Below are positions 1-48,370 of a DNA stretch of 48,370 nucleotides, piece after piece. The notes under the pieces were generated by a model. The model saw only the letters and a program-made list of their open reading frames with translations, was not told the origin of the DNA and did no database searches. Position 1 is the stretch's first letter, and each line of letters opens with the position of its first letter. The stretch is from the NCBI GenBank assembly GCA_944391115.1, contig CALXSJ010000023.1, forward strand, positions 1 to 48,370, written 5' to 3'. A program made the translations under genes and the position numbers. The DNA is from an uncultured Victivallales bacterium. Lineage in GTDB: Bacteria > Verrucomicrobiota > Lentisphaeria > Victivallales > UBA1829.

Positions 1-706
1 CCCCGCCCGGAGCGGTTCAATCCGCTCAGTGACGAGAACTTTTCGCTAAGAAAAGTTCGAGAGCTCCGGGCGTCTCCATCAAGACGGAAAAATGCGCATG
101 CTTTTTTCGTCTCGTTAATACTCATTAATCAATCACGAAAGCTCCGGGCATTTCCCCAGAGGTGATATACTGTACCGGCGGCTCTCGAAGCTTCGCTTCT
201 CGTCCTTTAGCGGGTGGAATCGCCGCCGGAAAGGGAGATTTCGCCTCCGGCGACCAGCTTGCGCAGCTGGACCGCGGCAGGACTGGAAGTCCTGCACGAT
301 CACAACAGTGACGAGAACTTTTCCGCTCGAAAAGTTCGAGAGCTCCGGGCGTCCCCATCAAGACGGAAGAATGCGCACGCTTTTTTCGTCTCTTTAATAT
401 TCATTAATCACGAGAGCTCCGGACATTTCCCCAGAGGTGATGCACTGTACCGGCGGCTCTCGAAGCTTCGCTTCTCGTCCTTTAGCGGGTGGAACCGCCG
501 CCGGAAAGGGAGATTTCGCCTCCGGCGACCAGCTTACGCAGCTGGACCGCGCAAGGGTCAACGACCCTTGACCTCGAGAAAAATGCAACGCATTTTTCCG
601 TTTTTCGGGCCGGACACTATCCGCCGGCGACCAGCTTACGCAGCCGGATCGCGCAAAGGTCAACGACCCTTGACCCCAAGAAAAATGCAACGCATTTTTC
701 CGTCTC
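1..706. repeat. Tandem hairpin-rich intergenic repeat array
   Basis: No gene is visible here. A unit of about 279 bp starting CAGTGACGAG at 27 is repeated from 306, with small indels in the second copy, followed by two partial copies of a GAAAAATGC/CAAGGGTC hairpin block at about 550-600 and 650-700. Stems seen include GAACTTTT/AAAAGTTC (from about 36 and 316, with different loops), GAAGC-TTC-GCTTC (187-199), GCAGGACT-GGA-AGTCCTGC (277-295), CAAGGGTC-AAC-GACCCTTG (552-570) and GAAAAATGC-AAC-GCATTTTTC (578-598). The block CCTCCGGCGACCAGCTTGCG and its hairpin recur at 11.1, 29.1, 29.3, 39.9 and 48.1 kb. Open frames inside are repeat artefacts. Confidence 0.85.
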
Positions 707-10914: not shown

Positions 10915-11040
10915 TCGTTTCTTCTCTCATCCAGACTGTACTGTCGGTCATGGAATCGCACCATGTCTGCGGAACCTTCCGGATCCGCTCGCGGACTTTA
11001 CCGCCGGTAAGGAGTTTCACCTTGCCCTGAAGAAAACTTC
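10915..11040 (-). ncRNA. FMN riboswitch (RFN element)
   Basis: Read on the minus strand, the leader shows the RFN consensus in order: AGGGCAAGGTGAAACTCC, then TTACCGGCGGTAAAGTCCGCG, a variable arm, and at the 3' end GGTGCGATTCCATGACCGACAG followed by GTCTGGATGAGAGAAG. This six-arm aptamer binds FMN and represses riboflavin genes. It lies 94 bp before the ribBA ATG and begins just after a -10-like TATATT. No clear U-tract terminator follows, so control may act at translation, though the platform was not resolved. Confidence 0.95.
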
Positions 11041-24177: not shown

Positions 24178-24978
24178 ATGCGAAAACCGGAAGAAAAAAG
24201 AATCCGCAGTACAAAAAATGACAATGCGCAGCATGCGCACACCTGTAATCTTTTCACCCTGGTGGAGCTCCTCGTAGTGATTGCGATCATCGCAATTCTG
24301 GCCTCAATGCTGCTTCCCGCTCTCGGGCGGGCGCGGGACATGGCGCGCGGAATCTCCTGCATCAACAACCTGAAACAGATCGGAACGGCCTTCTCGTTTT
24401 ATCTTGCCGACAACAAGGAATTCTATCCGAGCGGCGTCTCGGCGCAGAAGAACTATATGGGCTGGTCGTGGTACAAGGTGTTTGTCATGCATGGCAAATA
24501 CATTACATGGAAATCCATGTTCGACTCCGCAATGACCTATGAGGAAGGCAAAGAACCTTATGAACGTCCGAATGATGCGCCATGGGGAGAGAGTTATCTT
24601 CCTTACGGATACAATTACACGGTTTTCGGTTCAAGCAAGGCCAATGGAATCCTCGACGAGGAAGGAAGGAGCGCCAAACTTTCTGAAATTGCATACAGTT
24701 CAAAAGCCTATCTCGTCATGGATACGAAAACATACGACCTGCAGACGGGAAATACCTTTGTGCAGACCCGCGACAACACCACGGCCATTCCCGACGCATT
24801 CCGCCACAAAGGACACGTTTCGATCGTCTACGCCGACGGCTCCGCAGGGAAGAAGAAAGCGGCAAATCCCTATCAGCCTTATGAAGTCAACAGCCTGAAC
24901 TATTTCAATTACGGCAATCCCGGACACCGGGCGGTCTGCTGGGACGGCGGACGTTTCGGCGGAACTCCCGTTTTCTGA
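24178..24978 (+). CDS. Prepilin-type protein with H-X9-DG motif
   Basis: The 266-residue protein starts at 24178, where GGGAG lies eight bases upstream; the upstream open frame is not needed. After a 31-residue charged leader comes the type IV pilin/pseudopilin signal [19 protein letters not shown], so cleavage and N-methylation by a prepilin peptidase are expected at the phenylalanine. The region [22 protein letters not shown] is typical of Lentisphaerota/Planctomycetota pseudopilins. Near the end [12 protein letters not shown] fits the H-X9-DG processing-associated motif. It lies 26 bp before the large secreted protein, suggesting a shared extracytoplasmic job, perhaps substrate capture or export. 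Confidence 0.88.
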
Positions 24979-29101: not shown

Positions 29102-29290
29102 GGGATTTCGCCTCCGGCGGCCGGCTTGCGCAGCCGGAGCGCACCAGGACTCAATGCAGAACACGAATCATAATTTGCAAAGCAAATTATTTTTTTTATT
29201 ACGGAAAAATGCGCAAGCATTTTTCGCGGGGTCAAGGGCCTCTCGGCCCTTGGCATGATCCAGCGGCGAAACGTTGAGCGTGCGAAGCAC
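29102..29290 (+). repeat. Interspersed hairpin element, composite form
   Basis: Successive stems are CCGGCT-TGCGC-AGCCGG, ATAATTTGC-AAA-GCAAATTAT, GAAAAATGC-GCAA-GCATTTTTC, CAAGGGCC-TCTC-GGCCCTTG, CCAGCG-GCGAAA-CGTTGA (imperfect) and CGTGC-GAA-GCACG (29279-29291). The same order, reverse complemented, is found at 48045-48370. It runs straight into a short-form copy. Confidence 0.85.
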
Positions 29291-29406
29291 GAAATCCCCC
29301 GCCTCCGGCGGCCGGCTTGCGCAGCTGGACCGCACCAGGACTCAATGGAGAGCACGAGGCAATTTCTGGCAATGCAGAGCATCGCGATATTAACCTGATT
29401 TTTTTT
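29291..29406 (+). repeat. Interspersed hairpin element, short form
   Basis: It starts with the CCTCCGGCGGCCGGCTTGCG block and ends GGCAATGCAGAGCATCGCG, then TTAACCTGATTTTTTTT, matching the 11154-11267 and 39930-40038 copies. It lies just before the glyS promoter. Confidence 0.85.
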
Positions 29407-29424
29407 GAATAAAGCAAAATGAAA

Positions 29425-29507: not shown

Positions 29508-30845
29508 ATGGCTATCATCAATGCGGAAGGCGATCTGATGGACAAGATCGTCACCTTGTGCAAACGGCGCGGCTTCGTGTTTCAGAGTTCGGAAATCTAC
29601 GGCGGATACAACGGCTTCTGGGATTACGGCCCCTACGGCGTCGCAATGAAAAAGGCGATCGAACAGCTCTGGTGGAACGAAATGGTCGAAAAGCGCGAGA
29701 ACGTCGTCGGCCTTGACTCCACGATCATCTGCCATCCGAAAGTCTGGAAAGCCTCCGGACACATCGACCGTTTCGGCGACATCATGACCGACTGCAAGGA
29801 CTGCAAAACCCGTTTCCGCGTCGATCAGATGCCCGATCCGACCCGCTGCTCGAACTGCGGCTCGAAAAATCTGACGCCTCCGCGGGAATTCAATCTGATG
29901 ATGAAAACCTACGTCGGGCCGGTCTTCGACGAGGAGCACGTCGCCTATCTCCGCGCGGAAACCTGCCAGCCGATCTTCGTCGACTTCCATCTGGTGCGCA
30001 TCGCCACAAGAAAACAGCTGCCCTTCGGCATCGCCCAGATCGGCAAGTCCTTCCGCAACGAGATCACGCCCCGGAACTTCACCTTCCGCTCCCGCGAATT
30101 CTCCCAGATGGAAATGGAGTTCTTCTGCAGCGACGAGGAGTCCATGGAATGGTTCCGCTACTGGCGCGCGGAGCGGATGAACTACTATACGAAGTATCTC
30201 GGCTTCCGCGAGGACGAGCTTCAGTATCACGACCACGACAAGCTCGCGCACTATGCAAAGGCGGCCGTCGACATCGAATTCAAATTCCCGTTCGGATGGG
30301 GGGAACTCGAAGGCATCCACCACCGCGGCACCTGGGATCTCTCGCGCCATCAGGAATTCTCTCAGGAAAATCTCGAATATCTCGATATGCGGACCAACAA
30401 AAAGTATCTGCCGACCTGTGTGGAAACCTCCGTCGGGCTTGACCGCACCTTCCTGGCCGTTCTCTCCCACGCCTACGACGAGGACAAGGCGCCGACGCAG
30501 AAAGAGGGCATGGAGGAGGACGTCCGCATCGTTCTCCACATCACTCCCAGAATCGCGCCGGTCCAGGTCGCAGTCATGCCGCTTTCCAAGAAGCTCAACG
30601 AACAGGCGGAGGCTCTCCAGAAAGACATCTGCCGCTTCTACCGCTCGGAACTCGATGTGACCGGAAACATCGGAAAACGCTACCGCCGTCAGGACGAAAT
30701 CGGGACACCCTTCTGCCTGACCTACGACTTCGAGTCCGCCTCCGACAATTCCGTCACGGTCCGCGACCGCGACACCATGGCGCAGGAACGGGTCGGAATC
30801 AGCCAGCTCCGAAGTTATCTCGACAAAAAAATCTACGGAGAATAA
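29508..30845 (+). CDS. glyS: Glycine--tRNA ligase (alpha2 type)
   Basis: This class II synthetase charges tRNA-Gly. The 445-residue single-chain form belongs to the alpha2 type shared with eukaryotes, archaea and many bacteria, not the alpha2beta2 enteric type. It shows RRGFVFQSSEIYGGYNGFWDYGP at the start, a CKDCKTRF...CSNCGSKN zinc-like insertion at about residues 98-123, motif 2 region FRNEITPRNFTFRSREF, motif 3 ETSVGLDRTFLAVL and the C-terminal anticodon-binding domain (PRIAPVQVAVMPL). AAAGGAAG precedes the start. It is a single-gene unit between a repeat element and a shared terminator. The symbols glyQS and glyS are both in use. Confidence 0.96.
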   Translation: MAIINAEGDLMDKIVTLCKRRGFVFQSSEIYGGYNGFWDYGPYGVAMKKAIEQLWWNEMVEKRENVVGLDSTIICHPKVWKASGHIDRFGDIMTDCKDCKTRFRVDQMPDPTRCSNCGSKNLTPPREFNLMMKTYVGPVFDEEHVAYLRAETCQPIFVDFHLVRIATRKQLPFGIAQIGKSFRNEITPRNFTFRSREFSQMEMEFFCSDEESMEWFRYWRAERMNYYTKYLGFREDELQYHDHDKLAHYAKAAVDIEFKFPFGWGELEGIHHRGTWDLSRHQEFSQENLEYLDMRTNKKYLPTCVETSVGLDRTFLAVLSHAYDEDKAPTQKEGMEEDVRIVLHITPRIAPVQVAVMPLSKKLNEQAEALQKDICRFYRSELDVTGNIGKRYRRQDEIGTPFCLTYDFESASDNSVTVRDRDTMAQERVGISQLRSYLDKKIYGE

Positions 30846-39929: not shown

Positions 39930-40038
39930 GGGATTCCGCCTCCGGCAGCCTGCTTGCGCAGCTGGACCGCACCCGGACTGCAAATCCCGCATGAAGCTGT
40001 TCCGGCGATGCAAAGCGTCACGGTATGAACCTGATTTC
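39930..40038 (+). repeat. Interspersed hairpin element, short degenerate form
   Basis: GGGATTCCGCCTCCGG, a CTTGCGCAGCTGGACCGC block, and GGCGATGCAAAGCGTCACGG followed by GAACCTGATTT match the 11154 and 29291 copies part by part. The terminal stem is damaged and the T-run shortened, so this may be an old copy. Confidence 0.75.
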
Positions 40039-42291: not shown

Positions 42292-42969
42292 ATGAAAAAG
42301 AAATGCGGGGCTGTGACAGGTTTTACCTTGATCGAGCTTCTGGTCGTAATCTCCATTATTGCAATTCTCGCTTCGATGCTGCTTCCCGCGCTGAACATGG
42401 CGAGAGCCAAGGCAAAATCCATTTCATGTGTCTCCAATCTCCGCAGCTGCGGAATCGCCCTGCAGCAGTATACGATTGATTATCAGGACTGCATCCCGTA
42501 TTATGCCGGAAGTCCGGGATACTCGTCGGGATTCCGTTCCGGGGAAACATGGGAATGTCAGCTGGGCAGATATCTGGGCTGGACTCCGACCAAAGGAGAC
42601 GCCGTCTTCCACTGTCCCGCACGAAAGATCGGCGTCCATCCCAGCTATCCGAAACAACATCCCCGGAATTCCTGCGGATACGCCATCTACATTTCCATGT
42701 ATTTTACCAATGAACCGGGATGGATTTCAAAAATCACCCGCATCAAAAAGCCGACCAAGAGTCTTTATCTTGCGGAACGCGACAACGGTTCCACCCAGGC
42801 TGAGGTTCCGATCCCCTTCATGAACGAGTGGAATGTAAATTATGTCGGAATCAGCAACCCCGTGGCGGCGGTGCATCCGGGGCTCCGGACCGCGGTCCTG
42901 TGCGTCGGAGGGAACGCCTTCCTCTTCCGCTATCCCGGTCAGAAACTGGTTGCCGGAACCTTCTACTGA
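42292..42969 (+). CDS. Prepilin-type protein, H-X9-VG variant
   Basis: Start at 42292 follows AAGGAG by eight bases. The short basic leader [10 protein letters not shown] leads to [19 protein letters not shown], the type IV prepilin signal. The mature part has [21 protein letters not shown], as in the 24178 gene. The tail [13 protein letters not shown] keeps the spacing of the H-X9-DG motif, but the aspartate is a valine. Of 225 residues, most of the rest is a small extracytoplasmic domain with several cysteines. It precedes the carbohydrate-binding and GH42-like genes, repeating the pilin-then-secreted-enzyme order seen at 24178-29021. Confidence 0.87.
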
Positions 42970-48044: not shown

Positions 48045-48370
48045 AAATAATTTGCCATGCAAATTATAATTCGTGCAGGACTTTCAGTCCTGCCGCGCTC
48101 CACCTGCGCAAGCCGGACGCCGAAGGCGGAAGTTTTCGCGCTTCGCGCGACCAGCGTTTCGCCGCTGGAGCACGCCAAGGGCCAAAAGGCCCTTGACCCC
48201 GCGAAAAATGCTCGCGCATTTTTCCGTAATGAAAAAAAGTGAAGCCTCCCTGCCGCGCTCCACCTGCGCAAGCCGGACACCGGAGGCAGAAGCTTTCGCG
48301 CTTCGCGCGACCAGCGTTTCGCCGCTGGAGCACGCCAAGGGCCAAAAGGCCCTTGACCCCGCGAAAAATG
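48045..48370 (-). repeat. Composite hairpin element with 160-bp tandem repeat
   Basis: In reverse orientation to the 29.1-kb copy this region has ATAATTTGC-CAT-GCAAATTAT, GCAGGACT-TTC-AGTCCTGC (48075-48093), CGCGC-TTC-GCGCG (48137-48149), CCAGCG-TTTCGC-CGCTGG (48151-48168), CAAGGGCC-AAAA-GGCCCTTG and GAAAAATGC-TCGC-GCATTTTTC. The block from CCTGCCGCGC at 48089 is repeated from 48249 (period 160) and is cut by the window end. Confidence 0.85.

Follow-up and report, generated by a model that had tools for sequence, protein, structure and literature searches.

A fixed-plan hairpin repeat of Victivallales, possibly a BIME/REPIN-like DNA family, whose stem arms change together

The 48,370-nt stretch analysed here (the window, which is the entire contig C23 of the 3.66 Mb draft genome G000) carries many copies of a hairpin repeat that follows a fixed plan, (H1) - H2 - CGYGRT - H3 - H4 - AAAT, and whose stem arms change together. 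We give about even chances to the view that this is a non-autonomous, intergenic, BIME/REPIN-like DNA hairpin repeat family of Victivallales, in which template switching homogenises the arms and purifying selection acts on H3 and on the stem plan. Literature searches on repeats of Victivallales or Lentisphaerae yielded nothing relevant. In our best reading the family is new, of the BIME/REPIN-like sort, with an unusual evolution.

The unit consists of three hairpins (H2-H3-H4), and in the family of the window's genome a fourth hairpin, H1, usually stands in front. In R orientation, the B-type unit comprises H1 (CGGAAAAATGC-loop-GCATTTTTCNCG), H2 (GTCAAGGGCC-loop-GGCCCTTG), then TCGCGGT, H3 (CCAGCG-GCGARA-CGCTGG), H4 (TCGTGC-GNA-GCACGA) and AAATC. 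The A-type unit (GCAGGACT-TTC-AGTCCTGC, CGCGGT, CCAGCT-GCGCA-AGCTGG, TCGCC-GGA-GGCGA, AAATC) shares this plan, and a model built from B-type and distant copies detected the A-type copies of the window, some of them weakly. Hairpins with CCAGCT or CCGGCT around TGCGC are those of subfamily A, which the covariance model usually placed in the opposite orientation. Tail-to-tail arrangement was found for 22 of 30 A/B neighbours in G000 and, in genus g1, for 38 A-B neighbours versus 14 head-to-head; this was not so in genus g10, where units are single or tandem and singlets and tandems dominate. Two further hairpin modules, C and D, are interspersed with the units. Module C lies between A and B units; the fold of a typical unit, taken from a relative, is a three-way junction. 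Module D (AACCGCTTTGAAAAGCGGTT ... GCAAAGGC) is a hairpin-rich repeat observed after B units in genus g10 (L162, L294 and L126; G024, CASEYW and G019).

Three B-subfamily copies are present in the window. Copy 1 lies at 48131..48225 on the minus strand (85.9 bits with covariance model R1 at 48131-48202; also by sequence and in the blastn family), with H4 at 48137-48149, H3 at 48151-48168, H2 at 48176-48195 and H1 at 48203-48224 in plus-strand positions. The interval 48137-48168, to which a sequence-only reading of this DNA had drawn attention, is H4 plus H3 of this copy. Copy 2 (48291..48370, minus strand; 84.9 bits at 48291-48362; direct repeat D4, 97% identity) is tandem to copy 1 at a spacing of 160 nt and is truncated within H1 by the contig end. 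Copy 3 (29202..29297, plus strand; 66.0 bits at 29226-29297; inverted repeat I1 with 48071-48238) has H1 at 29204-29225, H2 at 29233-29252, H3 at 29260-29277 and H4 at 29279-29291, and its H3 is partly broken, one arm having decayed (CCAGCG/CGTTGA). The strings quoted in that reading were all found in place: CGCGC-TTC-GCGCG at 48137-48149, CGTGC-GAA-GCACG at 29279-29291, CAAGGGTC-AAC-GACCCTTG at 552-570, and CAAGGGCC/GGCCCTTG at 29233-29252 and 48176-48195. Because the 29.2 kb copy is on the plus strand and the 48.1 and 48.3 kb copies are on the minus strand, both H4 loops are GAA in register.

Copies of subfamily A accompany them. The copy at 48069..48134 (plus strand) is weak alone (R1 17.2 bits, E 0.033) and has the same hairpin plan by sequence; it is tail-to-tail with B copy 1, and their AAAT ends abut. 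A fragment comprising the H3-H4 part (48249..48290, plus strand; sequence, repeat D4) is tail-to-tail with B copy 2, and the copy at 29292..29357 (minus strand, 21.1 bits) with B copy 3. Further A copies, all on the minus strand, are at 29103..29166 (23.2 bits; repeat family D1), 236..299 (39.9 bits) and, in diverged form, 39931..39996 (18.0 bits, E 0.023). Two hybrid copies form a tandem pair on the minus strand: 511..601 (55.1 bits at 511-577; sequence), in which B-type H1 and H2 (the latter strings at 552-570) are fused to A-type H3 and H4, and 600..703 (37.5 bits at 600-679; repeat D3). The partner repeat, module C, has two copies without strand assignment, at 27..131 and 306..410, which constitute direct repeat D5 (90% identity). 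At 29300-29414 we observed an extended version of the A unit that carries a T-rich tail. This version occurs in more than 30 places in G001, and here it is upstream of the glycyl-tRNA-synthetase-like gene that lies at 29508. Both contig ends (1-703 and 48069-48370) fall inside hairpin-repeat arrays, as do the ends of several other G000 contigs; since contigs begin and end within the arrays, the assembly breaks there. Elsewhere in the window, two genes have a prepilin-type N-terminal sequence (24252-24344 and 42321-42413), with dozens of similar places in G001-G003.

The repeat matched 59 places in G000 (blastn family), and copies are present in the sister species G001 and G003 and in the second genus, g10; all copy counts are lower bounds, as draft genomes break within these arrays. 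With model R1, which spans H2-H4, and a threshold of E<=1e-4, matches were found in 44 of 137 Victivallales genomes and 17 of 48 genera, with up to 51 matches per genome in the wider scan (the first scan listed at least 36 for the richest). Among the 145 genomes of a phylum sample, 12 were positive, 11 within Victivallales and 1 outside. The distribution is patchy, and most genera of family f1 have no repeat. Genome contigs from the same group contain the H3-H4 pattern; a search of viral contigs for it gave no match, on which ground a viral origin was rejected. A match of this pattern in the Planctomycetaceae contig L280 was taken as chance, the other features of the element being absent.

Covariation was analysed with our own implementation of the R-scape idea, a structure-blind G-test with average-product correction applied to 163 distinct copies from related genomes, against a null of simulated alignments in which the reconstructed substitutions were assigned to new places on the tree. 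Stem pairs took the first four ranks and ranks 6 and 7 among about 4,200 column pairs, and three had E<0.05 versus the tree-based null; the signal exceeds the phylogenetic background. The proposal that compensatory changes preserve the stems between copies was thus borne out: with 59 genome places and stem pairs at the top of the ranking, the paired changes are real and not chance.

Across the order there is hardly any variation in H3, its loop or the linkers, while H1, H2 and H4 stay paired as their sequences turn over, completely so in distant genera. Examples are CCGGGT/ACCCGG, CCAGGGC/GCCCTGG and a CGGCGCC type for the H2 arms, and CGTGC/GCACG, CGCC/GGCG and GCCGCC/GGCGGC for those of H4. 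An order-wide alignment had 96.8% of cells paired (30-42% in slid structures), a covariation score of 0.363 versus 0.096 when shuffled and at most 0.05 in slid structures, and 105 both-sides-changed cells versus 33 shuffled, counts that lean towards the model because that alignment was fitted to it. The unfitted order-wide alignment gave 91.7% paired and 29 both-sides-changed cells versus 8 shuffled.

Such changes also occur in place. In 43 between-species comparisons of copies whose flanks are syntenic, covering about 1,330 stem pairs, stem changes were two-sided in 17 cases and one-sided in 39, a count that contains some shared events and about 8 distinct double changes; about one two-sided change would be expected if the sides were independent. 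Divergence in these copies was about 2.7% for stem bases and 15% for loops and linkers, so that stems evolve about five times more slowly. In the cleanest case (G001 L082 versus G003 L089), two stem pairs were each altered on both sides, with 0 of 28 loop and linker positions different and flanks 85% identical. Ectopic gene conversion between copies could be the source of some of these double changes.

Covariation is usually considered to prove that an RNA fold is functional, and a structured RNA in many copies (3'-UTR element, terminator or small RNA), with selection on its fold, would explain its strength here. The R strand folds somewhat better as RNA than its complement (-49.3 versus -41.3 kcal/mol), many copies in the 8-kb loci lie shortly after the 3' end of a gene, and the H4 loops are strand-specific, those of the R strand being GNA in 100 of 142 cases. 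The GNA loop motif makes very stable DNA mini-hairpins (the GCGAAGC mini-hairpin), and the strand-specific loops may point to a single strand of DNA in folded form, or they could be inherited from a founder. Were one strand maintained for its RNA, G.U would be expected to persist longer than A.C. We counted 21 G.T and 22 A.C in near-intact copies, and 43 and 51 in all copies, with G.U favoured over A.C on neither strand; tRNAs at the same loci gave 21 G.U and 0 A.C, in a small control of 15 genes from a finder that favours paired stems. From the equality of G.T and A.C, as against 21:0 in tRNA, the arms seem to be kept complementary at the DNA level, unlike ordinary RNA. The mismatch at 29.3 kb, described by the sequence-only reading as a G-U intermediate, is indeed G.T on the plus strand; read in the family's own orientation it is A.C. 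The idea that the structure itself is under selection therefore held in part: the slower stems and the plan kept across families support it, while the mismatch spectrum disfavours selection on an RNA fold.

Other observations also weigh against RNA. Rfam found only an FMN riboswitch and tRNAs in the window, both elsewhere than the repeats, and nothing at the element loci reached any family cutoff. The riboswitch (RF00050) is at 10915-11038 on the minus strand (118 bits). Intrinsic terminators were rejected, a terminator scan being without excess over shuffles. A gene-orientation rule was likewise rejected, the left gene in the 8-kb loci being on the plus strand in 32 cases and on the minus strand in 19 (p 0.09, with a crude ORF caller for gene context), so that orientation to neighbouring genes is inconsistent. 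Together with the tandem and inverted arrays, these results make a structured RNA unlikely. Of 94 copies in the 8-kb loci (L199-L278), 65 had the R strand on the C-rich strand (p 3e-4, copies not independent), as did 17 of 25 in the 20-kb loci of G012 (p 0.11), a hint of a replication-orientation bias.

Comparison of orthologous regions showed how the arrays change. At the 29.2-kb site, the corresponding G001 region lacks a B unit and carries two A units in tandem. A unit located 9 nt after a stop codon in L162 (G024) is missing at the orthologous place in L294, from a fourth g10-like genome; this difference is clean, about 100 nt, and not polarised as gain or loss. Tandem copy number varies between sister species, and flanks stay conserved while the arrays that they enclose shuffle and duplicate. 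These presence/absence and copy-number differences indicate that units are gained or lost and that arrays reshuffle. Mobility of the units we infer from their dispersal and the one unpolarised site. Many copies are ancient, being common to sister species, so that any current activity would be hypothetical.

Array reshuffling, the equal G.T and A.C counts and the short life of one-arm states would also be produced by DNA mutation alone, that is, by self-correcting junk palindromes spread through recombination and tandem duplication, with neither selection nor dedicated mobility. This account does not fit the near-invariance of H3, its loop and the linkers across the order, nor the slow evolution of stems, as unbiased arm correction should not slow substitution. 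The repeat has also reached 17 genera with dozens of copies, and we regard mutation alone as quite improbable.

REPINs are inverted REP doublets (PMC3116915), and dispersed extragenic palindromic units, with inverted A/B doublets in genus g1, recall the classical REP/REPIN systems, which are moved by a RAYT (TnpA-REP) transposase. Y1_Tnp was found in 26 of 41 relatives and its presence does not track the repeat: none was found in the element-rich G003, G019 and G032, those of G000, G001 and G024 are broken or partial (the remnant in G001 resembles the IS200 type), and no A, B or C module was near the Y1 loci examined. A RAYT/IS200 association was rejected on these grounds. By inspection, the aligned copies have no constant terminal GTAG/CGTC tag, the conserved linkers being CGYGRT and GAAAT. 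With a unit of three hairpins instead of one, and with singlets and tandems dominating genus g10, a classical RAYT-driven system is very unlikely.

The reading that we favour, a non-autonomous DNA repeat with selection and arm correction, would work as follows. Units would spread in the form of DNA, with a folded single strand as the probable substrate of a putative enzyme for which H3 and the linkers would be the recognition site. An exposed single strand would fold, H3 and the linkers would be recognised, and the unit would be copied to, or joined at, another site. Copies already in place would be arm-corrected at replication: template switching on the hairpin (quasipalindrome correction) would repair or propagate a mutation on one side and so yield two-sided changes without a long-lived G.U intermediate. 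Homogenisation of inverted-repeat arms by template switching is described in PMC8794818, PMC8604942 and PMC7202029. Purifying selection would maintain H3 and the paired state; it is needed because template switching alone would not slow the stems or hold H3 constant. Loop inversions, a hallmark of template switching, were few and not enriched (GAA 32 versus TTC 2; AAC 9 versus GTT 5), and with so few cases they were dropped as proof. The suggestion that the element is copied as a folded nucleic acid may survive in a narrower form: we saw no evidence of a retro-type copy, but one arm templating the other within folded DNA (template switching) would fit the data. A bolder idea, which we offer tentatively and with some doubt, is a new class of mobile ssDNA-hairpin elements, spanning the order, with an invariant recognition hairpin H3, partner hairpins of fixed structure and free sequence, a putative mover enzyme, and arms co-rewritten by template switching. 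If true, nature would have recorded hairpin-templated DNA synthesis genome-wide in this class.

Strong covariation with a DNA-like mismatch spectrum is a caution for RNA-discovery pipelines, in that such covariation is not to be read as RNA. The orthologous copies would permit in-place measurement of template switching versus selection in compensatory evolution, and the conserved H3 hairpin points to a putative enzyme that recognises it across a poorly studied bacterial order.

Among known systems, the BOX elements of Streptococcus pneumoniae are modular hairpin-forming intergenic repeats (boxA, boxB and boxC) with variable module number, in one genus. Likened by description, both are modular hairpin repeats, whereas the Victivallales repeat is order-wide with a fixed hairpin order. 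Integron attC sites, which serve recombination and are recognised in single-stranded, folded form, are imperfect hairpins whose structure is conserved; the likeness is at the level of description. No integrase or cassette arrays were seen in the loci examined, where the neighbours of the repeats are ordinary genes (glycyl-tRNA-synthetase-like, glycoside hydrolase). Quasipalindrome correction by template switching (PMC8794818, PMC8604942, PMC7202029) resembles our case in that arms co-change and stems are perfect without a G.U intermediate; it is, however, a mutation process and not an element, and here it would act on dispersed repeats with a rare loop-inversion signature. Compared with REP/BIME/REPIN sequences and their RAYTs (PMC3116915, PMC8266576, PMC3733652), the Victivallales repeat differs in its three-hairpin unit, strong arm covariation, and lack of a tracking RAYT and of a GTAG/CGTC tag. 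It resembles them in being a high-copy extragenic palindrome, in its inverted doublets and mosaics with hairpin modules, and in that an ssDNA hairpin is likely the active form.
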